Part shown: one piece after another, positions 5,955 to 45,296 of the stretch
Layout of the letters: the number at the start of each line of letters is the position of its first letter
How positions within the stretch are numbered: the stretch's first letter is position 1
IMG/VR virus record: IMGVR_UViG_3300020165_000035
Span: 1-45,296 of that record
DNA length: 45,296 bases
Source: a virus
Strand: one strand, 5' to 3'
Notes under the pieces: model-generated
Database searches by the model: none
The model's input: the letters and a program-made list of their open reading frames with translations, nothing else
What the model was told of the DNA's origin: nothing
Translations under genes and position numbers: made by a program

Positions 5955-7059
<1,105 letters not shown>

Positions 7060-7073
<14 letters not shown>

Positions 7074-22549: not shown

Positions 22550-22557
22550 TATTTATA
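22550..22557 (-). promoter_or_regulatory. T4-type late promoter TATAAATA (gp13 operon)
   Basis: Exact TATAAATA on the minus strand that includes the TAA stop of the 2456-residue fibre gene. It lies 18 bases before the gp13 ATG and would drive the neck-to-terminase genes. A 7-bp inverted repeat (GGTAACG at 22521-22527, CGTTACC at 22558-22564) surrounds it. Confidence 0.65.
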
Positions 22558-25500: not shown

Positions 25501-28500
25501 TAAAATATGTTAATGCAGTATGAGCAGTTGTTTCTACTACTGTTGATACTACACTATCTCCGACCAAACCTAATAAAGTTAATTGGTCGTTTACGTTGAA
25601 AGCAGGGGAAAGTTTTAACCCACCCGTCAAAGTCAATTTGTTAGTAGTAGAAGCACCGTGATCTGTTACATATTGTAACGTGGCAATGTCTAGTATATTA
25701 CCAAGAGTTCTATCTACTACACTATCAAGTGCAGTAAGACCTAATATAACAGTATTATCTGATACTGCATCTGATAAATTAGACGTGCCTACCGTTAATC
25801 CACCGGCACCGATGTTTGCCCTATTTGTATTAAGTCTATCATTTGAATAAGTTAGACTGCCATTATCTTCTAACTCACCGTCTGTTCCTGCTAAAACTAT
25901 TCTAGTCGCAGTTAAATCAGATACTTTGGCGGTTCCTAATGTAGCAGAGTCGCCACTGAATCCCAACGCAACTATTGGTCTGGTTGTAACATAACCTTGA
26001 TCGGTAACGTTCTGTAAAGTTGGATCCGAGAAAGCAGAAGCAGATGCTTCGCGGGTTCCTACTGTCCCGTCTGCGGCAATAGTGACAACAGTAAATTCGG
26101 TACCTTGAGCGGTTAGTCCTGTAACAACCAACCCTGCGTTAGTTGCATCAATCGTAGTAGAGTCTAATGTTGTAATACCACCAACATCAAGATCCGTTGT
26201 GACATTAATATTGGTGGCAGTTAATGTGGTATTACTAAACGTTAAGTCAGCATCGTCTTCTAATTCACCATTAGTTCCAGCAATGACCACCCGACCACTG
26301 GTTAAATCTTCTACTTTAACTGATGAAGCTTCGATGCCAGCATTAGCATCAAGTAAACCGTCAATAGTTGTTTTATCGAGAGTAGTTTCTCCCGTTACAT
26401 CAAATCCTCCAACTATCGAAGTTGAGTCTAATGTTGTAATACCATCAACATCAAAATTTTGTTCGATGTTTACGCCTTTGTTAAAGGACCAGTCATCACT
26501 AACCGCATCGTATTGTATTGTTGCTACACCATCCGACCCTAACGAAAGTGTTATACCGCCTCCGTCAGCATCTTCTTTTTGAGTAGAACCGTCTGCAATC
26601 GTGATATTAATATCATCAACAGAAAGTTCTGTGGAGTTGACAGTAGTGGTTCCACCTTCGACTCTGAGGTTCCCTAATACTACAAGTTCTTGTCTTACGG
26701 TGACAGAATCAAGTGAGGATATACCCGAGACATCAAAATTTGCAACTAAGTTTAAATTAGTTCCATCGAAAGTGAAGTTGGCATCGTCTTCTAATTCACC
26801 AGAAGTTCCTGCGATCACTACCCGATTATCTGTCAGATCGCTCACTGCTGCACTTGCTAATGTTGCTTGGGTGCCAACACTCAAATTAGTCGCAAAGGTA
26901 GCACTATCGGCAGTTATCGCAGAAGTGCCGCCTAAAAGAATATCTAAATTCGAAGTATTACCAACTGTCAATACTTCGTTTAATCCCAAAGCAGACCCAT
27001 CAAGGATTGAACCATCAACTTCTAAAAATTCTACACTGTCTCCCGATGCACCTGATCCGAGATTCAACAGTTTATATGTTGCTTGTGTGTCCGTTGCGTT
27101 TGCTGCGAGAGAGATACCACCATTTAAATACAATGGTGTTGAGGTGACATCATATCCAACAGGTCTCGTAGGATCTGTGACAGTAGTTAATGTTTCGCCT
27201 GTAAAAGCAGTAGATTCAATTGTTCTTCGAGCAACTTCATTAGAACCATCGATTGTTAATACATCTAATGATTCAGTACCTATCAGTCCAGTTAGATTAA
27301 CCGCTCCTACTATCGTGGTAGAGTCTAATGTTGTAATACCACCAACATCAAGTGTACCTACTATTGAAGTTGAGTCTAATGTTGTAATACCATCTACGTT
27401 AAGATTTACACCAACTTGAAGTGCTGTTCCATCGAAAGTAAAATTAGCATCGTCTTCGAGTTCGCCATTAGTTCCAGCAATGACCACCCGACCACTGGTT
27501 AAATCTTCTACTTTAACTGATGAAGCATCAATTCCAGCATTAGCATCAAGTAAACCGTCAATAGTTGTTTTATCGAGAGTAGTTTCTCCCGTTATATCAA
27601 GTGTACCTACTATTGAAGTAGAATCAAGATTCGTTACTCCCTCGACATCAAGGTTGTTGAGTACGTTTAAATCACCATCCGCATCAATTCTTAACCGCTC
27701 TAAATTTCCGGTGAAGAACGACATTGGTTTGGCACTGATACCTCTGAAATTTACCGCACCACTTTCAGTTGTAATTTCTAATACGGTATTATCACCTGTG
27801 TTATCCAGACGTAAAGACACTGGAGTTGTTCGTTCAATCTCCAGTCCTCGTCCACTAAAAAAGGTGGGTGTGCTTGTTCCCATACCAAAGTTTGCTTCGG
27901 CGTTGGAAATTTCGCCATGAAAAAGTGCACCATTCAGATAGACATCGTCGCCATCGACAACGAGTCTTCCGTTAATTGTGGTGGAGTCTAATGTGGTGAG
28001 ACCATCTACGTTAAGATTTACACCAACTTGAAGTGATGTTCCGTCGAAAGTAAGATTAGCATCGTCTTCGAGTTCGCCAGCAGCACCAGAGAACACTACA
28101 CGATCCGTGGTCAAGTCTGTAACGCTTGCGCTTGCAAGAGTTGCCTGAGTAGTTGCTTCTAGGTTTTGGACGGTAGCACTATCCCCCACAAAACCTTGCG
28201 CGATAATTTCTAACGTAGTAGTTCTTCCGCGCTCGGTTGCGGTTTGAAGTGTTGTGTCATCACCGTCCAAGACTTGGTTGTCGAGTTCTCGGAGAATTAC
28301 CTGTCCTTCGCCAGAAGATTTATCGTAGACTAAGAACCTATTAACAGTCTCAGAAGAACCCATTACATCGGAATCTATACGGAGACCAACGCCTATACCA
28401 TCGATGGTCAAACCGCCGACATGTAATGATCTGTTAGTGCTATCACCAAACCCTGAAGCAGAACCAGCATCTACTTGATCGGTTACAGTTTGTAAAGTAT

Positions 28501-29923
28501 CTAATTCGGTGCCCGTAAAAGCAATTGTGTTAAGATTAACGAAACCTACCGAATCATTATCCTGAATAACTAAGACACGATCTTGGTTGCCGTTTCTATT
28601 AGTTTTGTTAGATAGTAATACGTCACCGTTCAAACTAACCTTGCGAGCAGTAGTATCGCCCTTACCTACAACGTAATCAAGAGTTACCAGATCGCCATTG
28701 AAAGCAATATCATCTGCAAGTCGTTTTGCTACAATCGCACTATCACCGCTCGCGGCAAGTTCTGCTACCAGAACATAATTCCCTACGCCATTGGCAAGCG
28801 TCAATCCGGTACCGTTGCCCCGAAGTTTTATGCTGTTACTGAATATTACTGGGTTTCCAGTTTCACCAGCTTCGAACCCATCTTCTGTTCTTCCCGAAAC
28901 ACTGTGTAATGTTTCAAAAGTGGTGTCGAGATTTTCAACCTCAATATCTACAACTTCATATTCTTTTGAGGTTTCGTTCCACGTGACCATTGGAATAAGA
29001 CCAGATGCCGGTAGTGTCGCAACAGTTGGATTTAATACATCAAGTTGCCCAACTCTGATATTACTATTGGTGCTATCGTAAAAAGCAAGATCTCTTAGTG
29101 ACCTGACACCTATTGAATCGTCTATACCATCAATTACCAATGCGTTTCTGTGTGTTACAAAATTGCCTCTTGTTTTAGGTTGTTCGTTGAATTGAAAAAA
29201 CTTAGCATTTAAACCGTATGTGGTAACCGCACCTTTCTGGAAAGAAGAGGTTTGATCGCCCGAAGAAATTGTTTCTTCTACTACTTGTTGTAAAGTAGGT
29301 GCAGTAAAATTAGTAAAATCGAAATTAGTAAAACCGACACTATCCTCTGCACCTTTTACCAGAAGCAGAGTAGATTGAATGCCCTGTATACCAGATACAT
29401 TTACAAGTGAGTTAAGATTTACTTGTCCATCAAATTTTGCCAAACCATCGATTTCCATCGAGTTAGCATCTTCAATTTTTAATCCATAACTGTTAGGAGA
29501 ACTTCCTTCCACACTGCCAAGAGTTTGAATTACAATACCTTGATCAGTAGTGCTTCCAGTAACGGTGACCGTCTGTAACGTAATTTCACTTTCATCGGTG
29601 AAAGCAAGATCACCTAACTTACGATAACCAACGCTATCTGCGTCAGAAGAGGTCGTAGGGTTTCCATTAAGAATTAATGCGTAATCATTATCACCAGCAT
29701 CATTAAGTTCACCATCATCAAACGCAAGACCCTCAAGTTGAGGTCTTTTAGTGAACCCACGAGTACCATCCGCATTGGAAAAGAACAGCGAGTTATCACT
29801 CGCTGGATTACCGGGATTCGGTTCTGCTTGTTCAAGAGACAGGTAAGTATAACGATCATCATCTAACTCATCATTAGATCTCCGAACTATCTTACCACTT
29901 AACGATATGAGTCTTTTAGCCAT
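22553..29923 (-). CDS. Giant tail-fibre-like repeat protein (2456 aa)
   Basis: The protein starts MAKRLISLSGKIVRRSNDELDDDRYTYLSLEQAEPNPG and is built almost wholly of beta-type repeats. Three modules recur: TLQxVTDxGxxTT followed by a short strand (about ten copies); DSVGYRxLGxxAF; and RVVIAGTNGELEDDANFTFDG followed by NLNVDGITTLDSTTIDG. The last module clusters between residues about 560 and 1330. The C-terminal 450 residues or so are less repetitive and include RMGFANDWTGFPAFPNFTDKS and a final globular stretch ending DSAGDVLWGNV. The modules resemble shafts of marine phage tail fibres, probably trimeric and beta-helical. The ATG overlaps the end of the preceding gene by eight bases, with GGA upstream. 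No chaperone domain is recognised at the C-terminus. Confidence 0.85.
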   Translation of the reverse strand: MAKRLISLSGKIVRRSNDELDDDRYTYLSLEQAEPNPGNPASDNSLFFSNADGTRGFTKRPQLEGLAFDDGELNDAGDNDYALILNGNPTTSSDADSVGYRKLGDLAFTDESEITLQTVTVTGSTTDQGIVIQTLGSVEGSSPNSYGLKIEDANSMEIDGLAKFDGQVNLNSLVNVSGIQGIQSTLLLVKGAEDSVGFTNFDFTNFTAPTLQQVVEETISSGDQTSSFQKGAVTTYGLNAKFFQFNEQPKTRGNFVTHRNALVIDGIDDSIGVRSLRDLAFYDSTNSNIRVGQLDVLNPTVATLPASGLIPMVTWNETSKEYEVVDIEVENLDTTFETLHSVSGRTEDGFEAGETGNPVIFSNSIKLRGNGTGLTLANGVGNYVLVAELAASGDSAIVAKRLADDIAFNGDLVTLDYVVGKGDTTARKVSLNGDVLLSNKTNRNGNQDRVLVIQDNDSVGFVNLNTIAFTGTELDTLQTVTDQVDAGSASGFGDSTNRSLHVGGLTIDGIGVGLRIDSDVMGSSETVNRFLVYDKSSGEGQVILRELDNQVLDGDDTTLQTATERGRTTTLEIIAQGFVGDSATVQNLEATTQATLASASVTDLTTDRVVFSGAAGELEDDANLTFDGTSLQVGVNLNVDGLTTLDSTTINGRLVVDGDDVYLNGALFHGEISNAEANFGMGTSTPTFFSGRGLEIERTTPVSLRLDNTGDNTVLEITTESGAVNFRGISAKPMSFFTGNLERLRIDADGDLNVLNNLDVEGVTNLDSTSIVGTLDITGETTLDKTTIDGLLDANAGIDASSVKVEDLTSGRVVIAGTNGELEDDANFTFDGTALQVGVNLNVDGITTLDSTSIVGTLDVGGITTLDSTTIVGAVNLTGLIGTESLDVLTIDGSNEVARRTIESTAFTGETLTTVTDPTRPVGYDVTSTPLYLNGGISLAANATDTQATYKLLNLGSGASGDSVEFLEVDGSILDGSALGLNEVLTVGNTSNLDILLGGTSAITADSATFATNLSVGTQATLASAAVSDLTDNRVVIAGTSGELEDDANFTFDGTNLNLVANFDVSGISSLDSVTVRQELVVLGNLRVEGGTTTVNSTELSVDDINITIADGSTQKEDADGGGITLSLGSDGVATIQYDAVSDDWSFNKGVNIEQNFDVDGITTLDSTSIVGGFDVTGETTLDKTTIDGLLDANAGIEASSVKVEDLTSGRVVIAGTNGELEDDADLTFSNTTLTATNINVTTDLDVGGITTLDSTTIDATNAGLVVTGLTAQGTEFTVVTIAADGTVGTREASASAFSDPTLQNVTDQGYVTTRPIVALGFSGDSATLGTAKVSDLTATRIVLAGTDGELEDNGSLTYSNDRLNTNRANIGAGGLTVGTSNLSDAVSDNTVILGLTALDSVVDRTLGNILDIATLQYVTDHGASTTNKLTLTGGLKLSPAFNVNDQLTLLGLVGDSVVSTVVETTAHTALTYFTLDQAALTGSNTLNQQIDVTSALDLDGGFTASLTTDTPAVPTGAFDVIKLADVGGTDSAFRVTLQSGAVKPAEDYTWSFVLNNSPLSGINQPYFQNGLLIDRDNLPSTTNYSTSLIVPVFNTTGTLDSVGYRTLGTAANLAQTDITLDFVTGNQQVLIGSENYASTTNNIKIGKLIAGVPEFTGSVYAPVGDGNALFIGPQDSVGYRDVGAFAFRDQVTLQEVTNWGDSTTAEITMDALKLAGNTITILNNLPAISTDDALMYDSVSNQVGYRTLSDAAFLNPTLQIVTDEGDSTSSKIVTSGGLVLRGPGTPIISNPNATDPEQSNFLQMLVINTDTDSVKRGNISNITNVVVNKDLNDVTTYGSSISQDGIDSTSIAVNFKGDFYLGGLGDLNTIDTIIGIDTTTGQLYRRSVSSISGEVSLHDAVSVGDKTSSEAAFGGVRLRLGDVAFSDGLGFSGDYPEVLSVVGPAAGRQTKLTTDIAVISDSAYVSTLLRAQEIRTFDTLTIDKPPTLGGPALYIKDNGPTINFNHYNTNLEDSAIYQWGGNGSRFSLTHQQPGVSNAQYGIWYERNNQRMGFANDWTGFPAFPNFTDKSRVLIDWSGPVGDSALKLQQGMGLQVDGITTLDSTAIDAGSFGNGLTIPNLGTQTTNTDVLTINGDVVSKTAFSDMYDVPSLQSVTDVGSTTTNDIEISDNYLSVVNTDGSYAFRANVGVDTFKVNNITPVISKTGIVGDDATNAALQIHRHGANALGPYLFLSKNRGTNLLNPAIVVSGDNLGTIAFGGNDGTVASIPGAEIKVIAEGTQSAGDIAATMNFYNYSSGVKTQTMSVALDSVRVDGQFSVFHDTVGADVQINKTSQIPIQIHNNKTAAWNASGWKSVIETKMFSTDTTIHRHFINTLDASGGAGDTVTYNSQLFDISGTIQSYSFQTESTFGFDIGGLKMSLDANKMQLQTGVQLQDAAGANLVIYDSAGDVLWGNV
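26268..26403. repeat. 136-bp near-identical direct repeat, copy 1
   Basis: This block matches 27465-27600, same orientation and frame, with only a few mismatches by eye (about 1.2 kb apart). It encodes ELVVIAG-type, ASSVKVEDLTSGR and TTLDKTTIDGLLDANAG sequence of the fibre protein. The near identity at third codon positions suggests recent duplication or gene conversion. Confidence 0.85.
27465..27600. repeat. 136-bp near-identical direct repeat, copy 2
   Basis: Second copy of the block at 26268-26403. The differences cluster at the ASS/DASS segment and at one base near the end. Confidence 0.85.
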
Positions 29924-30288: not shown

Positions 30289-33200
30289 TTATCCCTCTAA
30301 TGCTAGAATATAAGGTGTTAATACTGCGAACAAAGATCTATCGAAAGTCGTCCCTGTAATTGTTCCCGACTCACGGTTGATGGTTAAATCGCCACCAATT
30401 CGGAAGTCGCCTAATTCGTCTGTTGCTGTAAAGTAAACCAAACCAAAGTTAGGTTGTGCTGCATCCGCAGAATCAAAAACTACTTCTAAATCTTTCTTAG
30501 GAATACCACCGTTTTGTGGAACCGCCGCAAACATGTTAGTACCGGATCCCACAAATTCAAAGGTGTGAGAAGAAGCACTAATCAAAGATCTTTGATGAAA
30601 GTTCGATGTTTGTTCCCCTTTCATGTTTTTATTTAGGGGCGGAGCAATCGTTATATCGTAAGAACCTGTCTCTGGAAGGATAGAACTGTAAGTAAATGCT
30701 GCACCCCGGTAAGGAATGGATACGTCAGCAGTTCGCTCTGGTGCGCTAATAGCAAGATAGTCTGCACTTCCTCCAACTGCAACCCCTTCACCAAACCTGT
30801 CATCATTAAAGCTGGCATTAGTATCACCATTGAATTGTCGGTTTTGAGGTCTAAGAATATTAACCTCAGTCCAATTAGTGCCACCACGTTCGAATATATA
30901 TGCCCCAACAGTGTCGTTCGCAACTTCTGAGGCACTACTTCTGTTCGCTCCGACTACTACAATATCACCTTTATCATTGATATCAATAGAACGTCCCATC
31001 CTAGTACCTTCTCTACCATCAGAAGGATACAGAGTTTCTTGATGCGTCCAATTACCTTCTTTAAAAGCAAACATGTCTACGCCACCAGTCTCATCGGTGT
31101 AACCAAAGACATAGTTTGAACCGTCCCATGTACCAATATTAGGTGAACTAATGGTTAATTGATTTGATGCTGGAATATTAATAACAGTAGTCCCATCTGT
31201 CAAGTTAGCATCTCTGTCTTCATAGTTTGCATTTTCAAATGATCCAGAATATAAAGTTTGTCCGATTGTAAATTTTTCTGCACTATCGACTAAAATATTT
31301 GACACGCCTACACTAGATGCTTGTGCGCGAGAGACAACCGTATTACCCGAAGTAGGATTAGCAAATGCCGCATATGTAGCATCAGGATTCATTGCCACGA
31401 TGTGATCAGAGATCGTTCCATTATTTTGAAACTGTGGTAAACTAATGTTCTGCGAGATACTGTAAGTTCCGAATTGATTCTTAGTATAGTAGTATGCAAC
31501 ATCTCCTCTCCAAGCAGCAAGTATACTACCACCGTCATTGCTTATTGCCGTCGAAGGAGCAAAAGAAGCAGTTCCTTTGGGGAAGAGTAATTTCTGGGCA
31601 AAGGTGAACCCATCAGGGTCTAATGCGGAGTCTCTGTTAAAAACGTGAATCGCACCGCTAATAAAGTTTGTGTCAGAATCAAATTTATTAGAAATACAAA
31701 TAGTATTCCCGTCACCCGATATTGATGTTCTCTTTCCAAATTGTCTGGTTTGTCCATTTTTAGTAGGAGACGATGATACTGAATCTTCGAGGAAATGGGT
31801 TTGCGACCAAGTAGAACCATCCTTCTCGAAAACATAAGCAGCACCATGCAAGGTAGTCGTGTCACTATAACCTGTAACATATCGTGCATTCTCTGCACCG
31901 GTAACAACTACTTTGCCGTCAGCACTTATTCCGGATTGTTCTGGCGCATAACCAAAAGAACTTCCCGTCCCATTGTTTATTGGGTTAACAGGGGCGATAG
32001 ACTGAACAAACTGCCAAGTCTTAGATCCTTCTGCTCGTTCCCAAAACTCTTGATATGATGCGTCTCTATTTGCCCAAGTAAGTGTAGTGTCATCGCTCGA
32101 CATAGCAATACCAGCACTGTGATAATTCCCTCTGGGCGTGTCACCGGTTTCGTATACGATCTGATCAGTGTTACCACTAACACCCCAGTTCTGCAAAATC
32201 TCATCGGACACATCTAAAACGGTGTAGTAGTAATTATCGGAATCAAATTTAATCGCATCATTATAATTAGGTTTCTTAAAATCACCTAATTGTAAAGAGT
32301 AATTTGCGGCATCGGTGTTTGTGATTCCGTTGATACGAATAATGTCATCATTCAAATTGTAATCGGCATGTAAAGAACCATTGTAAATTGATTCGGAACC
32401 ACCGGTTGAAACCAAACCACGGTCACCAAAAGAAGAGTTCGAGTTCGTAACAGAACATTGCCCACCCGTTTCAGCAAGAATAGATGTTGAGGTAGAAATC
32501 GTGAAACAAGACACTAACTGAGCATATGCACGATTGGTTAAGTGAACACCAATACCGTCTGCATTAAACTGTGTGAACGCATCAAGCACCATTGATCGTA
32601 GACCAGACACCTTAGAACCATCGATCTTCATACCAATACCCGATGTTGTCAACGAAGTACAGTTTTGTACATATGGTGATTGGGTAATGAACGGACCTGT
32701 GATCGCATCGTTTCTCGGATCGAATGCTACACAAGCAGCACCGTTCTGATGGTCGCGGAAAGTAACCTCTTTCACATAACAACCATTGTCAACCCAGAAA
32801 ATATCACTATCTACATTACGTGGGCGAATTGTAGTTGCCCTCAAAGCATCACCAATGATAGAAGTCTTAGGTGGGAGTTTGATCGGATTGTTAACAGTGT
32901 AGTCACCAGACTTCAAAAAGATAGTAGTATCGGTCCCTTGGTTCTGAGCAGTCTCGGATGACTGACGAATAATAGTCTGTCTTTCTGGTGTCGGGACACT
33001 ACTTAAAGTAATGCCCTGCTCGAACTTAGACCATGCGGTATAGATCTCGGGTGTTGTCGTAGAAATCCCTATACTAACAAGGTCTGGAAACACTAACGAA
33101 TCGTAACCTACTGCAAGTCCTGTCGGGTAGTTGTATTGGTAGATAGCAGTTCCGTTAAAGAAATCACCTAATTGGAAAGTTCCTATACTAGATTGCTCAA

Positions 33201-36200
33201 CAGCATGAATAATAATATCTAAGAGGTTTTGGATCTTAGTAATATTACCTGAATCTGTTCCTGCCGTATAACCCGCAATAATAGATTTTAACTGTTCGTA
33301 TGCTGCAATCGTTGCAGTCAGTTCACTTTGACCAAGTCGATCAGCATAACCATTACCAAAGATAGAGAAGTATGCTCGCATCGCAATAGAGGTTGCGCTG
33401 TTACCACCGTACTTGAGATCATAGGTCAACGCATCCAGAATGTATCCCACGTCTCTGCGACAAGTTGCCTGATCGTAAGAGTATGTTGGGAAAACGCTAT
33501 TGGCATAAAATACTACTTGCTCTTGTAACGTAGATCTGATAGCATGAAAAGTACTGCTCTCGCCAGTGAAAGTAGGCACAACAACAGGAATTGCTGATCC
33601 ATCTGCGGCATTGATTGCGTCTCTAATCCTTTCGATTAAAGCAACAACCCGAGCTTCTTCCGTAGAAGTCGTGACGTAATTATTAATGATAGTTTTTAAC
33701 TGTTCGTATGCAGCAAGTGAGGCGGTAATTTCACCGGCACCTAATTGATTAGTCCAGATGTCTGCGAGACCATCTAAACTTTCGTATGCAGTTGTGGTGT
33801 TCTCGATGTTAAGGTCTTTACCGACCCAGTATGAACGAGCATTGGTATCAGTAGCAAAAGAACCGTCGAAAAGAATATCGTGAGTCACGGCATCTACAAT
33901 GTATCCAACGTCTCTTTGACACTTGTCTTGATCGTATTCTAACGAATCGAAATTGTTTTGAATCCAAGTGATCAACTGACCCTGAATGGTTCTTCGATTA
34001 ACGATCAGAGCGTTTGCTGCATTTCTCTTATCGGCACTCTCACTTCCAGTTCCGGTAAAGTCGATAGAGGTTCCGTCTTCTTTTCCGTATGCGGTGGACT
34101 CTTCAAGGAGTTCAGTGATCTGTTTGATACGTGCCGTAACGAAAGTCTGACTTGTTGCGTTAATACCAGATGCGTTGATCTGGTCTCGCAAGTAATTGAT
34201 AGAATCGATTGTGTATTGTAATTGATCGCTCTGAACTTTTTGTGCATTACCTCTTTGGTATGCGAGTCCAGCAGTGATGCTATTATAGTCTGTATTGTTC
34301 TGTAAGTCAAGAGCAATCGCATCAATTATTAAACCGGTGTCTCGTTCACACTTGTGTTGATCGAAACTGCCTACAATGTTTTGATCATTTACATAGTCGA
34401 TGACATCGTTCTGAATGATCAATCTGTTTGCAACGATGGCATCAAAATCTGTTGTTGTCAATCCCGCAGTATCCACTTCTACTTCCGCAGGAATACTATC
34501 GGTATTACCAGCAGTAATAACGCCAGTGACCAGACCCATGAGTTCATCAACTCTTGCATTTTCAGAAGTATAATTCTTAATCTCTCCTGCAAGAAAATTG
34601 TACGCCGCAACTGTAGGTGCGGTTTCTCCTGAACCTAACTGGGAATTTGTTCCTGCAAAATATGAAAGTGCAGCATTACGAGAGGCGGTGTTACCGCCAT
34701 ACAACAAATCAATATTTATTGCATCAATTACGAATCCTGTATCTCTTTCGCACTTGGCTTGATCATATGCCAGTCCAGAATAGTTAGCAGTAATGAAGTT
34801 AGTAGTTGCTGTGATCAAAGCACTTCTCTGTGATCGTATAGTTCCGTGGTCTATATCTCTAAACTGTGAAGATGCATACGTTCCGTTTGCGGGATAAGTA
34901 GCATAGGTTTGAACTGTTGTTACGGTTCCATCAAGAACATCTATCACACGTTCAAACAACGTGTCTACCGTTGCATCAAGTGCGCCAACTAATGCTTTAA
35001 CTTTTGACTTGGCAAAATTAACAGCATCAATAGTTGCTTGTTTCTGATCGCTCAACACATAAGCAGTATTTGCTCTTAGGTATGAATTACCTGCCGCAAT
35101 TGTCCAAAAATCTGATCCAAGTAAAAGATCACGTGCAACAGCATCAAGGATTAATCCAACGTCTCTTGCACACTTACCGGCATTATATCCACCAAGTTTA
35201 GTGGACCAATTCAGATCAACATAGTCAATCGTGGCAGCCTGAGCACCTACGATTCCTGCAACGATAGCATCATATTCGGTAGTAATCAATCCAGTAGTAA
35301 CGATATTTACTTCTGCGGAAAGACCCGTGGTATTACCCGCCGTGATAACACCGGTGATTTCATCCACAAGTCCACCAAGAACTGTTTGTTCCGGAGCAGT
35401 CGTAACCACTGCGTTAATCCGTGTTTTAAGATCATTGTATGCCGCAACAGTTGCAGTGCCTTCTCCGAAACCTAACTGAGATACTGTACCTGAGAAATAT
35501 GCCAGAGCATTTGTGCGAGTCGCAGTGTTACCACCATACTTGACATCATGGGATAAACCGTCTATGATATAACCAACATCTCTTTCACATTTTGCTTGAT
35601 CGTAACCAAGACCTGGATAGTTGGCATTGATGTAAACCGTGGTATCAGAAATTAATGTTGCACGATTTGCTTGAAGATTCGTAGTTGCCGCAATTCGATC
35701 TGCCGTCTGGTATGTTGCCCCTGCCGTAGTCACATAGTTGATTGTTGGGTAAACCGTTTGCGTTGCGTTAATGACATCGGTAACATTCTTGAAAAGGTTT
35801 TCGATGTCAGTATCGGAAGTAACACCAGCAAGAGCAATAATGTAATCTCTCGCAAAGTTGATACCCGCAATAGTTGCTTCGTTCTGATCGCTCAATACAT
35901 AAGCAGAGGAAGACCTATTGTATGCCCAACCAGCAGTAATCGTATTGTAGTCAGTGCCTAATAATAGATCACGTGCAACCGCGTTGACAATTAGACCGAC
36001 ATCCCGAGAACAAGTTGTCGCATCGTATGACCCTGTGAGGAAATCGTTTGCGGGGTTGTTCAGGTAATCTAGGACCGCATCCTGAATTGCTTCTTTGTTA
36101 GTCTGAATAGCATTAGATGCTGCATTCGCGTCAGTCTGTGCTTCGACAGGTGGATCAGGAAACTCTAATGCAGAGGCAGTGCCGCCCACAAGAATCTCAA

Positions 36201-36753
36201 TGATCTCATCGAAACCAGAAGCAACACGTAGTTTAGAAGTCGCGTCAGTTTTTACTGCGGGAACAGAAACCATACCGAGACGTTCTTCGTTGATTGCTCG
36301 TCTAGTCTGATAGAGTTGTTCTGCGGTAACTTTAATCGCGTTACCACGCTTATACGATTGTCCAGCAGTTACCGCACCATAGTTTGTGCCTAATGCCATG
36401 TCATAACGAACACCATCCATAATAAGGTTAAGGTCTCGTTCACATGTAGTTTCGTCAAACTTGAAGTTTTCTTTTGCATATACAACTGCTACTGCCGAAT
36501 CCAAAGAGGAGAAAGCATTCATCAAAGATTTGCCATCATTTCCAGGAACGCCCGACTTAGAAACATAATAGACGTTATCTACATCTTCGGCACCAATTGA
36601 ATTGATACTGACTTCGCCGTTCTTGTCTTTCTTAATATACGCTTTACCATCGTGCGTATTGATTGCAATCTCGCCGAAGTCTATTTCATTAAGAGTCGGA
36701 GCACGTCCTGGTATGTCGCTGCGCGGAAATAATATTTTTTTTCTGGATGCCAT
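30289..36753 (-). CDS. Giant fibre/adhesin protein with CxRD repeats, beta-helix and beta-propeller-like region (2154 aa)
   Basis: The N-terminus is RKKILFPRSDIPGRAPTLNEIDFGEIAINTHDGKAY, a marine phage fibre start I recall. Eight units of about 140 residues follow, each marked by YDQxKCERDVGYIIDA, with the Cys near residues 104, 248, 388, 528, 666, 801, 942 and 1095. Residues about 1250-1445 look like a pectate-lyase-type beta-helix (IFLKSGDYTVNNPIKLPPKTSIIGD). Residues about 1560-2000 hold six or seven blades like FG-GAP/WD repeats (GISADGKVVVTGAENAR, SIDINDKGDIVVVGANRS). The last 150 residues (SSHTFEFVGSGTNMFAAVPQNGG) resemble the C-terminus of cyanophage virion proteins. A role in host adsorption is inferred. 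Confidence 0.85.
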   Translation of the reverse strand: MASRKKILFPRSDIPGRAPTLNEIDFGEIAINTHDGKAYIKKDKNGEVSINSIGAEDVDNVYYVSKSGVPGNDGKSLMNAFSSLDSAVAVVYAKENFKFDETTCERDLNLIMDGVRYDMALGTNYGAVTAGQSYKRGNAIKVTAEQLYQTRRAINEERLGMVSVPAVKTDATSKLRVASGFDEIIEILVGGTASALEFPDPPVEAQTDANAASNAIQTNKEAIQDAVLDYLNNPANDFLTGSYDATTCSRDVGLIVNAVARDLLLGTDYNTITAGWAYNRSSSAYVLSDQNEATIAGINFARDYIIALAGVTSDTDIENLFKNVTDVINATQTVYPTINYVTTAGATYQTADRIAATTNLQANRATLISDTTVYINANYPGLGYDQAKCERDVGYIIDGLSHDVKYGGNTATRTNALAYFSGTVSQLGFGEGTATVAAYNDLKTRINAVVTTAPEQTVLGGLVDEITGVITAGNTTGLSAEVNIVTTGLITTEYDAIVAGIVGAQAATIDYVDLNWSTKLGGYNAGKCARDVGLILDAVARDLLLGSDFWTIAAGNSYLRANTAYVLSDQKQATIDAVNFAKSKVKALVGALDATVDTLFERVIDVLDGTVTTVQTYATYPANGTYASSQFRDIDHGTIRSQRSALITATTNFITANYSGLAYDQAKCERDTGFVIDAINIDLLYGGNTASRNAALSYFAGTNSQLGSGETAPTVAAYNFLAGEIKNYTSENARVDELMGLVTGVITAGNTDSIPAEVEVDTAGLTTTDFDAIVANRLIIQNDVIDYVNDQNIVGSFDQHKCERDTGLIIDAIALDLQNNTDYNSITAGLAYQRGNAQKVQSDQLQYTIDSINYLRDQINASGINATSQTFVTARIKQITELLEESTAYGKEDGTSIDFTGTGSESADKRNAANALIVNRRTIQGQLITWIQNNFDSLEYDQDKCQRDVGYIVDAVTHDILFDGSFATDTNARSYWVGKDLNIENTTTAYESLDGLADIWTNQLGAGEITASLAAYEQLKTIINNYVTTSTEEARVVALIERIRDAINAADGSAIPVVVPTFTGESSTFHAIRSTLQEQVVFYANSVFPTYSYDQATCRRDVGYILDALTYDLKYGGNSATSIAMRAYFSIFGNGYADRLGQSELTATIAAYEQLKSIIAGYTAGTDSGNITKIQNLLDIIIHAVEQSSIGTFQLGDFFNGTAIYQYNYPTGLAVGYDSLVFPDLVSIGISTTTPEIYTAWSKFEQGITLSSVPTPERQTIIRQSSETAQNQGTDTTIFLKSGDYTVNNPIKLPPKTSIIGDALRATTIRPRNVDSDIFWVDNGCYVKEVTFRDHQNGAACVAFDPRNDAITGPFITQSPYVQNCTSLTTSGIGMKIDGSKVSGLRSMVLDAFTQFNADGIGVHLTNRAYAQLVSCFTISTSTSILAETGGQCSVTNSNSSFGDRGLVSTGGSESIYNGSLHADYNLNDDIIRINGITNTDAANYSLQLGDFKKPNYNDAIKFDSDNYYYTVLDVSDEILQNWGVSGNTDQIVYETGDTPRGNYHSAGIAMSSDDTTLTWANRDASYQEFWERAEGSKTWQFVQSIAPVNPINNGTGSSFGYAPEQSGISADGKVVVTGAENARYVTGYSDTTTLHGAAYVFEKDGSTWSQTHFLEDSVSSSPTKNGQTRQFGKRTSISGDGNTICISNKFDSDTNFISGAIHVFNRDSALDPDGFTFAQKLLFPKGTASFAPSTAISNDGGSILAAWRGDVAYYYTKNQFGTYSISQNISLPQFQNNGTISDHIVAMNPDATYAAFANPTSGNTVVSRAQASSVGVSNILVDSAEKFTIGQTLYSGSFENANYEDRDANLTDGTTVINIPASNQLTISSPNIGTWDGSNYVFGYTDETGGVDMFAFKEGNWTHQETLYPSDGREGTRMGRSIDINDKGDIVVVGANRSSASEVANDTVGAYIFERGGTNWTEVNILRPQNRQFNGDTNASFNDDRFGEGVAVGGSADYLAISAPERTADVSIPYRGAAFTYSSILPETGSYDITIAPPLNKNMKGEQTSNFHQRSLISASSHTFEFVGSGTNMFAAVPQNGGIPKKDLEVVFDSADAAQPNFGLVYFTATDELGDFRIGGDLTINRESGTITGTTFDRSLFAVLTPYILALEG
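33430..36480. repeat. Eight-copy divergent coding repeat (about 420 bp period)
   Basis: Within the 2154-residue gene the CxRD unit recurs at about 36440, 36010, 35588, 35168, 34754, 34350, 33928 and 33468. Two sub-types are visible: one continues DLLLGTDYNTITAG, the other HDxxYGGNTATRNAxxYFxG. They mostly alternate, giving a superperiod of about 280 residues. DNA identity between units is modest, so this expansion is old. Confidence 0.8.
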
Positions 36754-39576: not shown

Positions 39577-40337
39577 CTTAATCTACTTCTTGCTAAACTT
39601 TCTTTTTTAGGAACAGAATTAGAATAATGAAATACAACCGGTTCTTTATCGTTACAATGATCCCATTCATATCCATGAAAGTTATTCCATCTGCAATCGT
39701 ATTCGTCATCTAATCTACCTACCAAAATATCAGAATATTTAGGTTCTCGATTTAATAACCACCATAAAGAAAATTGATCCCATCTTGCTAACGATTTAGG
39801 ATAGTTGACGGTATCAGGTGTTCCGTCAGGAGCGGAAGGCCACCACTCGCCGCTATACTGTTTAACAGTAAGGTCATACCAATCGTTCATTAGGTCTTTA
39901 ACGAGAGGTTTGGTCATATCGTAGAGACAAACTGCTCCGCACCAATCAAATGATACACCATTGCCCCATTCATATTCAGCAAAAATATATGATCTTTCGT
40001 CTGTTAGAGCAGTGAACAATACGTGCTTATCTTTAAATAAATCGAATACAGTGGGCAAGTCACCATGAATAATTTCACAATCAGCATCTATATAAAAGGT
40101 CTGGTCAAAGGGAGTGTTTGCCATCCCCCATAACTTTGCTCTTGGATGATTATCACACGTTAAAATATGATCCGCAATATGGGATCCGCCGAGATCTAAA
40201 TATTTTTGTTCTGATACTAAACAAACTTTGGCATCTGGATCAAACTCTTTAATTGAAGAAATTAAATTTAAAGCACTATAATAATAAAACTCTAATCTAT
40301 TTGCTACTACTACATACCCTTTATTTACTTTCGTCAT
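39573..40337 (-). CDS. GT-A fold glycosyltransferase (254 aa)
   Basis: The N-terminus KGYVVVANRLEFYYYSALNLISSIKEFDPDAKVCLV and the motif FYIDADCEI, a DxD at about residues 84-86 from the ATG, are typical of nucleotide-sugar transferases of the GT-A fold. The DxD binds the metal and sugar nucleotide. A later WGNGVSFDWCGAVCLYD segment and RWNNFHGYEWDH fit the acceptor side. The donor and acceptor cannot be told. The ATG at 40337 is chosen because GGA lies nine bases upstream; a TTG at 40343 is in frame but less likely. It overlaps the upstream gene by 17 bases and the downstream oxygenase-like gene by four, so the pair is likely made together. It has no membrane segment, so it acts in the cytoplasm. 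Confidence 0.8.
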   Translation of the reverse strand: MTKVNKGYVVVANRLEFYYYSALNLISSIKEFDPDAKVCLVSEQKYLDLGGSHIADHILTCDNHPRAKLWGMANTPFDQTFYIDADCEIIHGDLPTVFDLFKDKHVLFTALTDERSYIFAEYEWGNGVSFDWCGAVCLYDMTKPLVKDLMNDWYDLTVKQYSGEWWPSAPDGTPDTVNYPKSLARWDQFSLWWLLNREPKYSDILVGRLDDEYDCRWNNFHGYEWDHCNDKEPVVFHYSNSVPKKESLARSRLR

Positions 40338-40779
40338 TATCAATTTCCAAAGACTTCAATAATACAACTGCAATCCAAGCGTTCATTTCAATATCGCTTT
40401 TAGATCCTCGAATTTTAGTTCGAAGTGCTTTATCTGTACATTCACGAACCTCTTTGATTTCGAAAGCTTTCAACTTGAGTCCAAACAAATGTTCTAACCC
40501 AGCAGATCTTTCTCTCTGATTTTTTTTCAAATCAGTCTCATTTTTTTCTTTGAGTTTAGTTTTACGGCGTATGTCCGTATTTTTAGTGATTCTGTCTTCA
40601 CCAATTTCTGCGAGTAGTTGTGTCCATAATGGATTGACGCTACCGTCAGGAAGATTTTTAGGAACAGGTTGCTGTCTATTTTCGACAGTGCCATCATCTT
40701 TCTCAATCGTATAGATTGACATTGCTTCTGTTTTTTCTTTATTGACCCAAAACGGGTTACTTTGGAAATATGCTTTCAT
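40321..40779 (-). CDS. Conserved small protein of unknown function (152 aa)
   Basis: The protein starts MKAYFQSNPFWVNKEKTEAMSIYTIEKDDG and has a proline-rich loop (QQPVPKNLPDGSVNPLWTQLL). It then has a very charged helix (RRKTKLKEKNETDLKKNQRERS) and a C-terminal helical region with KLKAFEIKEVRECTDKALRTKIRGSKSDIEMNAWIAVVLL. AAAGGATG lies just before the ATG. The helical, charged character and its place after a long fibre gene recall tail-fibre assembly chaperones, but no family is recognised. It lies 48 bases after the peptide-repeat gene and overlaps the glycosyltransferase start. Confidence 0.75.
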   Translation of the reverse strand: MKAYFQSNPFWVNKEKTEAMSIYTIEKDDGTVENRQQPVPKNLPDGSVNPLWTQLLAEIGEDRITKNTDIRRKTKLKEKNETDLKKNQRERSAGLEHLFGLKLKAFEIKEVRECTDKALRTKIRGSKSDIEMNAWIAVVLLKSLEIDNDESK

Positions 40780-40827: not shown

Positions 40828-43800
40828 TTATCTCTGTGTATCCACTTCGAAAGTAATCACGACATTAACATCATCACTTCCTGCACCGACCTTACGGATT
40901 TTAATTCGTGCTTGGTCTGTAAGTGATAGATTTGAGTTTGCGTTGGCGCTTCTTCCAAGAACAGTTCTAGTTGTTCCAAGAGAAACATAACCGGTTGTAG
41001 TTCCAGTTATGGTTCCAGACACCTGAGTTATTTCAACTTCATAGTCGCTTCCGCTTGCCACTTGTCGATCATCTGCTGTTAACCACTTATCTATAAGAAT
41101 ACTGCTAGGTGTCGTTCTGTAAAAATCTCCCTGTCCTGCAAATTGTAATTGACCACTGGAGTTTAACGCAATACCTGACTCTAACACGTCACTAGTGCCA
41201 ATTGCTGCTTGACTGTTTTGAGATTTTCTAACAGTAATTGCCGTCATCTGAGCATCCGGTTGATCAGCAGATGCTGTGCTAGTATCATTTATATAGACTG
41301 CTTGTGAAGTAGCAATTCTGCGTCCACCCGTAGCAGAATCCCAAAGTTCAATCCAGAAATATTCTTCGCCTTCGGTGAGAGTATCAGCAGCAATACCCTT
41401 GAAAAGAGTGGATGACGATACTGCACCGGTTAAATTAACAGCACCTCTGGACGTTTCTCCATTATTGAAACTAAGATCATTTGCATCAGCCGTTCCTAAT
41501 TCTCCGTTGATAGTGTTATATGCATAATAAACGGTTTCATCAAATCCTGTATTTGCTCTCGTAATTCTCGTATTTAGAGTTTCTCCTTCATCAATGCTAT
41601 ATCTTGGTCCAGTCAATGATGGGAAAGAAATATCCCACCCTTGATCATCGTCTACCTTACAATACAGGGTGTAGGTTTCTATTTTCGCAAATTCTGTTCC
41701 GACTAATAATTGATCATCACCGCCAAGAAAACTTTCAGTTCTCGTTACGGTTATAAAGTCGCCTATGAACGGAGTATCTTCTATGTACGATATGTTATCA
41801 ATAAACGGAGTATCTTGAATGAATGGAATATTATCGATATATTCTTGGGTGTCGATTGTTGGTGTATTTTGAATAAAAGGTACTGTCTCATTAGTGTTAG
41901 CAATGAAAGGGATTTGATCAGTGGTAACGGTATTTCGAATGAAAGGGGTATTCCTATCAAAGTTGGTATCCCCTATGAATGGAACATTTCCTATGAATCC
42001 ACCAGGTATATCAATATTGTCTTGGAAGTTACTATTACCGATGTAATCTATAGTAGTGTTGTAATCGAAGTTAAAAATAAAATTGGAAGTAAAGTTTATA
42101 TTACCTAAAAAAGAGACGTTCTCGATGTAATCCTTCTCAAAAATGAAACTTAAAAACCCTTCTACATCTCTAATATAATCACGATCAGTAATAAAATCAC
42201 CGATATAATCCGGAGTTGTAATAGTATCTCTAATATAATCCGGAGTTGTAATAACGTCACCAATAAATGGTGGCGTTGTAATAACGTCACCAATAAATGG
42301 TGGAGTTGTAATAACGTCACCAATAAATGGTGGCGTTGTAATAATATCTTGAATATAATCCGGAGTTGTAATAGTATCTCTAATATAATCCGGAGTTGTA
42401 ATAGTATCTCTAATATAATCCGGAGTTGTAATAGTATCTCTAATATAATCCGGAGTTGTAATAACGTCACCAATAAATGGTGGCGTTGTAATAATATCTT
42501 GAATATAATCCGGAGTTGTAATAACGTCACCAATAAATGGTGGCGTTGTAATAACGTCACCGATAAATGGTGGAGTTGTAATAGTATCTCTAATATAATC
42601 CGGAGTTGTAATAGTATCTCTAATATAATCCGGAGTTGTAATAACGTCACCGATAAATGGTGGAGTTGTAATAGTATCTTTAATATAATCCGGAGTTGTA
42701 ATAGTATCTTTAATATAATCCGGAGTTGTAATAACGTCACCAATAAATGGTGGCGTTGTAATAACGTCACCTATAAATGGCGTATTGCGAATAAAGGGAT
42801 TACGAACTTCTTGAATGTATTGCTGTTGAACGTTATCAATAAAATCTGCTGTACCTTTCGTGTTGCCAATGTAGTCAATTTCTGTATTGATATTGTCAAT
42901 GTAATCGATATTGTCAATATAATTACCAATGAAAGGTATATTATCAATATAATTTACGTTCCGGATATAATCTACATTTTTAATATACGGCGTTGCAGTA
43001 TTAACGTTATCGATGTAGTCAATGTTGTCTTGATAATTAATATTATCAATGTAGTCAATATTATCAGTAAACTCCGCAAGACCTTTCGTGTTGCCAATGT
43101 AGTCAATATTATCTTGATAGTTAATATTATCAACATAATTTACGTTCCGGATATATGGCGGAGTTGTAATAACGTCACCAATGTAGTCAATATTATCTAC
43201 ATAATTGATATTATCAATATAATCTACGTTTCTAATATACGGCGTTTCAGTATTAACGTTATCGATGTAGTCAATGTTGTCTTGATAGTTAATATTATCA
43301 ATATAATTTACATTTTTAATATACGGCGTTGCAGTATTAACGTTATCGATGTAGTTAATATTATCTTGATAGTTAACATTATCAATATAATCTACGTTTC
43401 TAATATATGGTGTAGTAGTATTAACGTTATCGATGAAGTTAATGTTGTCTTGATAGATAACATTATCAATATAATCTAGGTTGGCAATATACGGCGGAAA
43501 CGTAATGGCATCACCAATGTAGTCAATATTATCAATAAAAGGTTGAAGACCCTTCACGTTATCGATGTAGTCAACGTTCTCTTGATAGTTAACATTATCA
43601 ATATAATTTACGTTGTAGATATATGGCGTTGTAGTATTAACGTTATCGATGAAGTTAATATTATCTTGATAGTTAATATTATCAATATAATTTACATTTT
43701 TAATATACGGCGTTGCAGTATTAACGTTATCGATGAAGTTAATGTTGTCTTGATAGTTAATGTTGTCTTGATAGTTAACATTATCAATATAATTTACGTT

Positions 43801-45296
43801 CCGGATATACGGCGGAAACGTAATGGCATCACCAATGTAGTTAATATTATCTTGATAGTTAATGTTGTCTTGATAGTTAACATTATCAATATAATTTACG
43901 TTTCTAATATATCCTATATCGTCTTTCAACCCGCCGATGAAGTTGATGTTGTCTTGAAAGTTGACATTATCAATAAAATTTACGTTGTAGATATAATTTA
44001 CGTTGTAGATATACGGCGTTGAAGTAAGAACGTTATCGATGTAGTTAATGTTGTCTTGATAGTTAACATTATCAATATAATTTACGTTGTAGATATAATC
44101 TAGGTTTTGGACATATGGCGGAGTTGTAATAACGTCACCAATGTAGTTAATATTGTCTTGATAGTTAACATTATCAATATAATTTAGGTTTTGGACATAT
44201 GGCGGAAACGTAATGGCATCACCAATGTAGTTAATATTATCTTGATAGTTAACATTATCAATATAATTTAGGTTCCGGATATACGGCGGAGTAGTTGTGG
44301 TATTAGCAACATAAGAAATATCGTTAATATACGGCGTTGCAGTATTAATGTTATCGATGTAGTCAACGTTGTCTTGATAGTTAACATTATCAACATAATC
44401 TAGGTTTTGGACATATGGCGGAGTTGTAATAACGTCACCAATGTAGTTAATGTTGTCTTGATAGTTAACATTATCAATATAATTTACGTTCCGGATATAC
44501 GGCGGAAACGTAATGGCATCACCAATGTAGTTAATGTTGTCTTGATAGATAACATTATCAATATAATCTAGGTTTTGGACATATGGCGGAAACGTAATAC
44601 CATCACCAATGTAGTTAATGTTGTCTTGATAGTTAACATTATCAATATAATTTACGTTGTCAATATATGGCGTTGCAGTATTAACGTTATCGATGTAGTT
44701 AATGTTGTCTTGATAGATAACATTATCAATATAATCTAGGTTGGCAATATATGGTGTAGTACCTGTGGTATTACCAATAAAAGGAATATCATCTATAAAA
44801 GGAATATTATCAATAAAATCTAGGTTGGCAATATATGGCGGAAACGTAATGGCATCACCAATGTAGTTAATATTATCTTGATAGTTAATATTATCTTGAT
44901 AGTTAACATTATCAATATAATCGGGTGTATTCGGAATATCAGCTATAAACGGCGGGGTTGTAATAGTGTCACCTATGAAAGGAGTTTCAATTACTTGAGG
45001 CGTTATAACAGGAGTATTAGTAATAAAATTCCCGACAAAATCTATGTTTTGAATGAAATCTAAATTTTCTACGTAATTAGTTTCCGTATTGACATTATCA
45101 ATGTAATCAGTTTCCGTATTGACATTATCAATGAACGGTGTTTCCGTGTTAATATTATCAATGAACGGTGTTGTCGTATTGACATTATCAATGTAATCAG
45201 TTTCCGTATTGACATTATCAATGAACGGTGTTTCCGTGTTAATATTATCAATGAACGGTGTTGTCGTATTGACATTATCAATATAATCAGTTACCG
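40828..45296 (-). CDS. Giant short-peptide-repeat fibre protein with Calx-beta-like C-terminus (5' end outside window)
   Basis: The minus frame is open from the stop at 40828 to the right edge, at least 1488 residues; I checked every triplet from 43930 to 45294 and found no stop. A TTG at 43929 gives a shorter 1033-residue reading, but it lies inside the repeats and has no spaced ribosome site, so it is not the start. The protein is almost pure repeat: hexapeptides YIDNVN / YQDNIN, decapeptides such as YIGDVITTPP and FIDNVNTATP, a perfect decapeptide array at 42181-42780, then degenerate units (PFIGD, YIEDT). From about 41750 down, the C-terminal 310 residues are globular and include a Calx-beta-like unit (SIDEGETLNTRITRANTGF ... 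TEGEEYFWIELWD). No family is recognised. A long rod ending in an adhesive domain is inferred. Confidence 0.85.
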   Translation of the reverse strand, partial: VTDYIDNVNTTTPFIDNINTETPFIDNVNTETDYIDNVNTTTPFIDNINTETPFIDNVNTETDYIDNVNTETNYVENLDFIQNIDFVGNFITNTPVITPQVIETPFIGDTITTPPFIADIPNTPDYIDNVNYQDNINYQDNINYIGDAITFPPYIANLDFIDNIPFIDDIPFIGNTTGTTPYIANLDYIDNVIYQDNINYIDNVNTATPYIDNVNYIDNVNYQDNINYIGDGITFPPYVQNLDYIDNVIYQDNINYIGDAITFPPYIRNVNYIDNVNYQDNINYIGDVITTPPYVQNLDYVDNVNYQDNVDYIDNINTATPYINDISYVANTTTTPPYIRNLNYIDNVNYQDNINYIGDAITFPPYVQNLNYIDNVNYQDNINYIGDVITTPPYVQNLDYIYNVNYIDNVNYQDNINYIDNVLTSTPYIYNVNYIYNVNFIDNVNFQDNINFIGGLKDDIGYIRNVNYIDNVNYQDNINYQDNINYIGDAITFPPYIRNVNYIDNVNYQDNINYQDNINFIDNVNTATPYIKNVNYIDNINYQDNINFIDNVNTTTPYIYNVNYIDNVNYQENVDYIDNVKGLQPFIDNIDYIGDAITFPPYIANLDYIDNVIYQDNINFIDNVNTTTPYIRNVDYIDNVNYQDNINYIDNVNTATPYIKNVNYIDNINYQDNIDYIDNVNTETPYIRNVDYIDNINYVDNIDYIGDVITTPPYIRNVNYVDNINYQDNIDYIGNTKGLAEFTDNIDYIDNINYQDNIDYIDNVNTATPYIKNVDYIRNVNYIDNIPFIGNYIDNIDYIDNINTEIDYIGNTKGTADFIDNVQQQYIQEVRNPFIRNTPFIGDVITTPPFIGDVITTPDYIKDTITTPDYIKDTITTPPFIGDVITTPDYIRDTITTPDYIRDTITTPPFIGDVITTPPFIGDVITTPDYIQDIITTPPFIGDVITTPDYIRDTITTPDYIRDTITTPDYIRDTITTPDYIQDIITTPPFIGDVITTPPFIGDVITTPPFIGDVITTPDYIRDTITTPDYIGDFITDRDYIRDVEGFLSFIFEKDYIENVSFLGNINFTSNFIFNFDYNTTIDYIGNSNFQDNIDIPGGFIGNVPFIGDTNFDRNTPFIRNTVTTDQIPFIANTNETVPFIQNTPTIDTQEYIDNIPFIQDTPFIDNISYIEDTPFIGDFITVTRTESFLGGDDQLLVGTEFAKIETYTLYCKVDDDQGWDISFPSLTGPRYSIDEGETLNTRITRANTGFDETVYYAYNTINGELGTADANDLSFNNGETSRGAVNLTGAVSSSTLFKGIAADTLTEGEEYFWIELWDSATGGRRIATSQAVYINDTSTASADQPDAQMTAITVRKSQNSQAAIGTSDVLESGIALNSSGQLQFAGQGDFYRTTPSSILIDKWLTADDRQVASGSDYEVEITQVSGTITGTTTGYVSLGTTRTVLGRSANANSNLSLTDQARIKIRKVGAGSDDVNVVITFEVDTQR
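42181..42780. repeat. Array of twenty 30-bp in-frame tandem repeats
   Basis: Twenty consecutive units of exactly 30 bases each code for ten residues on the minus strand. Types in reading order are PPFIGDVITT (nine, the first with T in place of the leading P), PDYIKDTITT (two), PDYIRDTITT (six), PDYIQDIITT (two) and a last divergent PDYIGDFITD. Several units of one type are identical at DNA level, so slippage or recombination has been recent. The + strand carries the shared core CGGAGTTGTAAT or its TGG/CGT variants in every unit. Confidence 0.95.
42781..45296. repeat. Higher-order 18/30-bp repeat field coding YIDN-type peptides
   Basis: Short units of 18 and 30 bases, all multiples of three, recur throughout. 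Larger blocks are reused: the 60 bases at 44101-44160 and 44401-44460 differ at about one base, and a block coding GDAITFPPY followed by an NYIDNVNYQDN-type stretch appears near 43500, 43815, 44200, 44500 and 44840. The field continues past the right edge. Confidence 0.9.
45091..45270. repeat. Perfect 90-bp tandem duplication
   Basis: Bases 45091-45180 and 45181-45270 are identical as read. Each 90-mer holds three 30-base units coding NTETDYIDNV, NTETPFIDNI and NTTTPFIDNI in varying order. A third copy begins at 45271 with a few changes and runs off the window. Confidence 0.93.

Follow-up and report, generated by a model that had tools for sequence, protein, structure and literature searches.

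In pelagimyophages, the interval from VrlC to gp14 has been described as a host recognition cluster, in which the genes just after VrlC encode tail fibres in most genomes and which forms a large nonsyntenic island (available sections of PMC7029224). T4 gp5 contains a triple-stranded β-helix of octapeptides (VxGxxxxx) with an Asn/Asp ladder, the conserved last strand of which binds a tip protein (available sections of PMC4576200). Two Kyanoviridae proteins lend themselves to comparison: a structural protein of S-RIM2 (KX349269.1) with short Gly-Asn repeats (VTGNLTGN), and CDS0201 of Phage C48C1 (OQ984149.1), a 3,347-aa protein annotated as hypothetical.

The DNA analysed here (the window) is a virus contig of 45,296 bases, the last 4.5 kb of which are a single open frame on the minus strand (Table 1). 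Its sequence and surroundings suggest that the encoded protein is very probably a virion fibre for host contact. Likeness to T4 gp5, as far as the available text of PMC4576200 describes that protein, is one of analogy only (a short β repeat, an Asn/Asp ladder, and a conserved last strand), and no PDB sequence match of the fibre to T4 gp5 was found. The S-RIM2 protein also has short repeats, but these are aliphatic rather than aromatic, its N-terminus is a different one, and neck proteins are annotated after it; it was rejected as a relative because it is not homologous. The C48C1 protein, in contrast, has a homologous N-terminal anchor (39% over 165 aa). Like the family of the window protein, it shows even spacing of aromatic residues and ends in ETYTLYVRVA, and its gene is followed by three cassette homologues in order and by an annotated L-shaped tail fibre assembly gene; unlike the window protein, it mostly uses steps of 4 and 8 (288 and 76 of 455) and lacks a C-terminal extension. 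Taken as a whole, the explanation favoured here, with a probability of roughly two thirds (0.68), is that the window encodes an adsorption fibre, anchored to the baseplate of a T4-like marine phage and possibly modified by the products of its own gene cassette.

Table 1. Features of the fibre locus in the window (residues are those of the visible part of the fibre).
Feature	Position	Strand	Basis
Giant fibre gene, C-terminal part, 1,488 aa	40828..45294	-	Open frame, stop at 40828
28-residue super-repeat stretch, 15 copies, residues 182-741	43072..44751	-	Unit parsing, autocorrelation, pattern match
Pure decapeptide array, [DP]-[YF]-I-x-D-x-I-T-T-P, residues 840-1028	42211..42777	-	Unit parsing
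ETYTLYCK, C-terminal strand motif of the family, internal here	41656..41679	-	47/49 relatives end at motif
275-residue C-terminal extension after the motif	40831..41655	-	Alignment A8, common to L127, L100, and L104
152-aa protein, charged, directly downstream of fibre	40321..40779	-	Syntenic homologue in 39/39 testable members
Putative GT-A-like glycosyltransferase, 256 aa	39573..40343	-	Alignment A5, invariant Y-x-D-x-D
Putative Fe(II)/2-oxoglutarate-type oxygenase, 227 aa	38893..39576	-	Alignment A6, invariant W-H-x-N, later H, R
L-shaped tail fibre assembly homologue, 123 aa	38474..38845	-	phrog_1084 E 4e-17, phrog_3304 E 3.5e-13

Repeat units of the fibre

The fibre frame runs off the end of the contig, and no clear start codon for it lies within the window; a TTG at 43929 was dismissed as a mechanical listing of the ORF finder, and the plus-side ORFs at 41710-42108, 42349-43479, and 43543-44022 were taken as shadows of the fibre repeats. 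Short units occupy 1,205 of the 1,488 visible residues (residues 1-1205), the last 283 (40831-41679) being ordinary non-repeat sequence. When residues 1-1205 were cut at each Y or F preceding I, V, Q, L, S, or T, 156 units were obtained, namely 86 hexamers, 55 decamers, and 15 units that differ in length from both (4, 12, 8, 16, 7, 3, and 9 residues), which bears out the preliminary description of this DNA, where aromatic-Ile-x-Asp/Asn units every six or ten residues had been noticed. The consensus of the hexamers is [YF]-[I/Q]-D-N-[IV]-[ND] and that of the decamers [YF]-I-[GD]-[DN]-[VTI]-[IN]-T-T-[PT]-[PD], position 4 being N or D in 85 of the 86 hexamers and 54 of the 55 decamers. Hexa-hexa-hexa-deca (6-6-6-10) is the order within the super-repeat, whose copies are interrupted by other unit orders, and the aromatic autocorrelation (lags 1-59 computed) peaks at lag 28. 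With 15 copies of this super-repeat, the order of units is non-random.

The N-terminus, for which an extension of the contig had been proposed, was found on an overlapping contig (IMGVR_UViG_3300020185_000107, L010), the only other contig matched in a search with a repeat segment; there, the fibre frame starts at an ATG (L010:2769). By arithmetic from both contigs, the full fibre has ∼2,939 aa, with an anchor region (residues 1 to ∼518) followed by the repeats and a second non-repeat domain at ∼895-1062. Assembly from short reads collapses or expands arrays of near-identical repeats, and the window contig ends inside the repeats, so that their length and order might be assembly artefacts. The two contigs, however, agree over an overlap of 3,628 bp save for one mismatch and one indel of 30 bp, i.e., one decapeptide, and C48C1, deposited as a complete genome, carries its own 3,347-aa version, which leaves an artefact scarcely credible. 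The exact copy number of the repeats in the window fibre is uncertain. The decapeptide array is one unit longer in L010, be it due to copy-number variation in the population or to assembly.

In the L010 copy of the repeats (row L021, residues 519-2669), successive aromatic residues lie at most 12 positions apart in 255 cases, and 92% of these steps are even, compared with 46% on average and 56% at most in 200 shuffles of the same repeats; the spacing is thus far from chance. Steps of six (118 of 255) and ten (79) prevail, two steps are of eight residues and one is of five. The composition (∼13% Tyr plus Phe, 24% Ile plus Val, 3.4% Gly, with Asp, Asn, Thr, and Pro abundant) and the spacing disagree with collagen (low Gly), with the left-handed hexapeptide β-helix [LIV]-G-x4 (the unit positions are Y/F, I/Q, D, N, I/V, N instead), and with pentapeptide repeats (the single step of five), all three of which had rightly been excluded beforehand. 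A triple-stranded β-helix of the gp5 type (VxGxxxxx) was rejected as well, given the two steps of eight.

Structure predictions and profile searches

For the anchor, AF2 with 35 rows gave a pLDDT of ∼90 for residues 1-50 and 350-480 (78-96 by tens of residues), and mostly below 40 for the repeats after residue 485. A separate model of 427 repeat residues, in which only residues 29-112 had shifted copies aligned to them, showed long strands with a period of 28 residues, solenoid-like for the 28-residue repeats, its pLDDT by tens ranging from 65 to 87 over the first 130 residues and from 51 to 73 over the next 60. The decapeptide array yielded no structure (pLDDT below 40). The stacked solenoid proposed earlier has a tentative counterpart in the model of the 28-residue repeats and none in the decapeptides. 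The best of the listed fold matches of the repeat model was 9rkv_M (Z 13.4, rmsd 3.2, 175 aligned), which we take to represent Agrobacterium phage tail fibres, tied with SufB at 13.2; the matches are presumably mainly right-handed parallel β-helices, with some pentapeptide-repeat, LRR, and left-handed helices among them. Foldseek returned no match of this model at E 0.001. Since AF2 draws unrealistic β-solenoids for repeats (available sections of PMC11795689), the solenoid model of the 28-residue repeats is weak evidence.

Fold matches of the anchor (laccases and pilins; Foldseek TM ∼0.1) were set aside, as they concern an inserted Ig-like part and barely test the conserved domain; the conserved part itself had no informative fold match, and the anchor had no PDB sequence relative up to E 5. 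Neither repeats nor anchor matched a PHROGs family of known function; phrog_22415 (E 3.4e-6), of unknown function, covers the repetitive stretch of the window. Among the Pfam matches of repeats and anchor, only UBQLN1 (PF23195, cut-off 27 bits) exceeded its cut-off, with 37.8 bits for the protein and 43.2 bits for the decapeptide array alone; it was not found at E 0.01 in the repeats of three relatives (L026, L054, and L100) and was taken to reflect composition. LED_rpt (PF20854) stayed below its curated cut-off (54.7 versus 59 bits) and was likewise missing at E 0.01 from the repeats of these three, and DUF3232 and Extensin matched only the repeats of the window, in none of three relatives tested. 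A match to the P-SSP2/P-SSP3 tail fibre, with repeats of the TTAKIADD type and another N-terminus, was also ascribed to composition. A profile search, suggested earlier as a way to reveal a well-described family, thus uncovered none that we take to be kin.

The repeats would, in the favoured explanation, form a long β-rich rod from thousands of residues in short units, with an aromatic residue every 4, 6, 8, or 10 positions. They might instead be a flexible, largely unfolded tether or brush, in keeping with the low pLDDT of the decapeptide array and of the first repeats after the anchor and with the abundance of Asp, Asn, Thr, and Pro. The content of Tyr plus Phe and of Ile plus Val, on the other hand, favours order, even spacing is kept over thousands of residues, and the predicted β structure of the 28-residue stretch is moderately confident, which makes a tether rather improbable.

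Relatives of the fibre and the spacing of their aromatic residues

In 50,697 phage records (E 1e-5), the anchor (first 530 aa) matched Phage C48C1 (Kyanoviridae) alone, and in IMG/VR it matched three contigs besides its own. A profile built from four rows (A1) gave 88 matches among viral contigs, of which 80 were kept, with the fibre's own contig included; these comprise the contigs behind three of the four profile rows and near-identical contigs from different samples. Clustering at 90% identity over the anchor end reduced 77 of the 80 to 35 clusters, the other three being without the motif used. The earlier reading, that a tailed phage encodes a giant fibre-like protein here, is supported. 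The homologues found lie in the collections searched with the anchor, viral contigs and phage records. The anchor is conserved over its first 60 and last ∼175 residues, with inserted sequence in between in many members; with inserted Ig-like domains set aside, the conserved domain amounts to ∼240 residues. No description of this fibre family was recognised in the open-licence literature, judged by titles and the beginnings of abstracts.

After the anchor, the repeat units of the relatives differ (YTGNYSRDFVGN, YTGDFSADYTSES, YIDNVNYQDNIN), and so does their step length: among the 9,058 aromatic steps of at most 12 residues pooled from the 33 clusters without that of the window, 6,106 are of four and 1,410 of eight residues. 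The even fraction ranged between 0.70 and 1.00 over the 34 clusters that have at least 60 repeat residues (one of the 35 being too short for this test), and in none of them was it reached by any of 200 shuffles. Judged by these sequences, the 4/8 rule is the wider one, and the 6/10 spacing of the window a variant of it. Even spacing holds the aromatic residues on one face of a β strand. Three residues past the aromatic, Asn or Asp is found in 87% of cases in the window protein, where these two make up 26% of all residues; across 32 clusters, the median is 45%, against a median background of 13%.

Two relatives combine steps of 4, 6, and 10: L022 (IMGVR_UViG_3300007276_000230), the nearest by anchor (48%, among the 80 kept of 88 matches), and L100 (IMGVR_UViG_3300023170_000023), the nearest by glycosyltransferase (63%, among the best 80 of 268), which also shares NYQDNVDYIGD units and the C-terminal extension with the window. 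Since tetrad units are still common in both, they look intermediate, and the window protein accordingly looks like a tetrad fibre whose units have grown by two residues. A universal coil of 28 residues was rejected, as lag 28 ranks among the top three multiples of four in only 12 of 30 clusters, others preferring 12/24 or 44.

The length of the rod would change by whole units. Fibres of near-identical phages differ by 10 aa, by 24 aa, and twice by 60 aa, and across 14 pairs (four of them gap-free), gap length is divisible by four in 25 of 55 cases; because gap placement is messy in most gapped pairs, only pairs with clean indels are cited. The 28-residue super-repeat, the relation of 6/10 to 4/8 spacing, the pure decapeptide arrays, and the five-gene cassette (fibre gene included) had not been foreseen in the preliminary description.

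C-terminal strand and extension

Almost all relatives with a stop codon (47 of 49) end two residues after [EQ]-x-[YF]-TLY-[VC]-R, and the remaining two carry a tail of 27 residues past this motif; the 49 are redundant, with a complete representative in 20 of the 35 clusters. The typical last strand is ETYTLYVRxA, with the variants ETWTLYVRVA and EIWTLWCRVA at loci reached via the glycosyltransferase. It may cap the rod or dock a tip, the extension of the window protein possibly serving as a tip domain of its own. L127, L100, and L104 share the extension but have different repeats, which indicates that the fibre end is modular. When the four extensions were combined into a profile, the 21 PDB matches listed included weak ones to tachylectin-2 (E 8e-5 overall, with no individual stretch passing) and to Calx-beta of a Na/Ca exchanger (E 0.014); no Pfam match was obtained up to E 1. 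Used as a query, the C-terminal 290 aa had no relative in viral contigs and a best E of 6 in phage records, and beyond the window they are absent from the family loci compared; relatives surfaced only in the glycosyltransferase scan.

Position of the fibre gene

Upstream of the fibre, L010 contains the 473-aa end of a VrlC-family protein (phrog_358), which also matches 788 phage records, several of them annotated as VrlC or baseplate protein, and an ORF of 352 aa. Downstream, the window contains, in this order, the cassette, fibre genes, head-tail adaptor, head closure, sheath-stabiliser protein, terminase, sheath, tube, and portal. The fibre gene thus sits between VrlC and the neck genes, as in a Kyanoviridae-like cluster, close to the VrlC end of the host recognition interval, and a fibre-assembly homologue is the fourth gene downstream. 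The conserved N-terminal domain would attach the fibre to the baseplate side.

A released or surface glycoprotein outside the virion, e.g., a decoy or exclusion factor, might be considered in view of the adjoining putative glycosylation gene and the fact that no solved relative was found. Yet the gene lies inside a tail and baseplate operon with the tail-fibre-assembly homologue adjacent, the anchor is conserved, and no signal peptide was seen by eye at the fibre N-terminus; such a role is very unlikely.

The cassette downstream of the fibre

All four cassette genes were present in the same order in each of the 39 members (17 clusters) that have a stop codon and at least 3.5 kb downstream; of the other ten stop-bearing members, eight hold as much of the cassette as their contig fits and two end within 0.5 kb. 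For the 152-aa protein, no credible PDB relative was found; it may be a chaperone or substrate adaptor and would, in the favoured explanation, help the fibre fold. The 256-aa protein has an invariant YxDxD (19 sequences), which we take to be the DxD motif of glycosyltransferases, and WDQFSLWWL. Support from Pfam for this assignment is weak and ambiguous: Glycos_transf_2 matched 13 of 19 members weakly (best E 0.0011), the unrelated ExbD model also matched 13 of 19 (best E 0.0062), and the match shown for the window's own copy is CIMR (E 0.13), without Glycos_transf_2. In the 227-aa protein, H130-x-N132, H191, and R199 are invariant (17 sequences), which is presumably the HxD/E...H...R motif of 2OG-Fe(II) oxygenases with Asn in place of the acid. 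This putative oxygenase had no significant Pfam, PHROGs, or PDB match, and profile comparison with three annotated S-RIM2 2OG oxygenases gave no significant kinship (P 0.018, 0.056, and 0.21; probability below 3%). Among the 50,697 phage records, both proteins matched only C48C1 at E 1e-5.

A reverse search with the 256-aa profile gave 268 relatives, the best 80 of which were kept. Homologues of both the 152-aa and the 227-aa protein were present in all of these 80 loci, and in 70 of the 77 with at least 1 kb upstream, an ORF with even-aromatic repeats lies directly upstream. Another ORF takes that place in the remaining seven; the anchor-plus-repeat profile still has a match elsewhere in five of these records (in one, only to its repeat-side end), and two end ∼2 kb upstream. 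The cassette enzymes could thus serve other fibres too. An ORF of 422-423 aa, alike in L147, L149, L164, and L166, separates the cassette from the repeat fibre or from the contig end; as it lies directly upstream of the 152-aa gene in these four loci, the cassette may accept other fibres.

The putative glycosyltransferase and oxygenase may modify side chains of the fibre repeats (Asn/Asp, Thr, or Tyr), a possibility that, judged by gene order and motifs, we rate at somewhat less than even odds. Alternatively, the fibre may be the same and both enzymes act elsewhere, e.g., on host surface polysaccharide, thereby blocking later phages; many glycosyltransferases have been reported in the host recognition cluster of pelagimyophages, where a change of the host surface was proposed (available sections of PMC7029224). 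The fixed order of the cassette in 39 of 39 testable members, despite the nonsyntenic nature of the island described there, and the joint occurrence with the oxygenase and 152-aa genes at all 80 loci (best 80 of 268) speak against this, as does a bacterial locus at which the pair adjoins another repeat protein without the glycosyltransferase; action elsewhere is thus doubtful.

The bacterial locus is the only confirmed match of the oxygenase profile among genome contigs, a Bdellovibrionales MAG contig (SXSP01000345.1, L188). At L188:1845-4388, an oxygenase homologue (HMM E 3e-43) adjoins a 152-aa homologue (E 3e-14), and the pair adjoins an ORF on the opposite strand with 17-residue repeats (SAWHPPGSNSTFYSNGG); no glycosyltransferase homologue was found at this locus. 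In 368 genomes of the phylum, the only bacterial copy of the oxygenase was the one already known. As a single case, this is a lead, not proof, that the oxygenase/152-aa pair acts on repeat proteins. A further oxygenase-like ORF with an HSD motif (read by eye) lies at L188 3531-4388.

As a probable phage tail fibre, the protein is distinguished by its spacing rule, its last strand, and a dedicated gene cassette, none of which was recognised in the open-licence literature searched. Although its product is annotated as hypothetical in the sole phage record found with it, the gene has relatives in many viral contigs, which spacing rule, anchor, last strand, and cassette together make recognisable; a likely adsorption fibre of a large, mostly uncultured phage group thereby gains a testable identity. 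The cassette suggests that fibres may be hydroxylated and glycosylated by enzymes that the phages themselves encode. In its most far-reaching and quite speculative form, the phage family would run a modification line of its own for one virion protein, with hundreds of fibre side chains hydroxylated and glycosylated, the 152-aa protein as adaptor, and a decorated β rod of undescribed fold whose length is tuned by gain and loss of whole units.

Other large reading frames in the window

An ORF of 2,456 aa in the fibre region (22553-29923) had no PHROGs match at 0.001, and the sole match of an ORF of 1,496 aa (14397-18887) at this threshold was phrog_26741, of unknown function. A tail fibre protein of 2,154 aa (30289-36753) matched phrog_5342, phrog_17885, and others, and 12 of the other family loci searched hold matches to it, mostly short. 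Another tail fibre protein, of 372 aa (5955-7073), adjoins the portal gene and matches collagen-like minor tail families.
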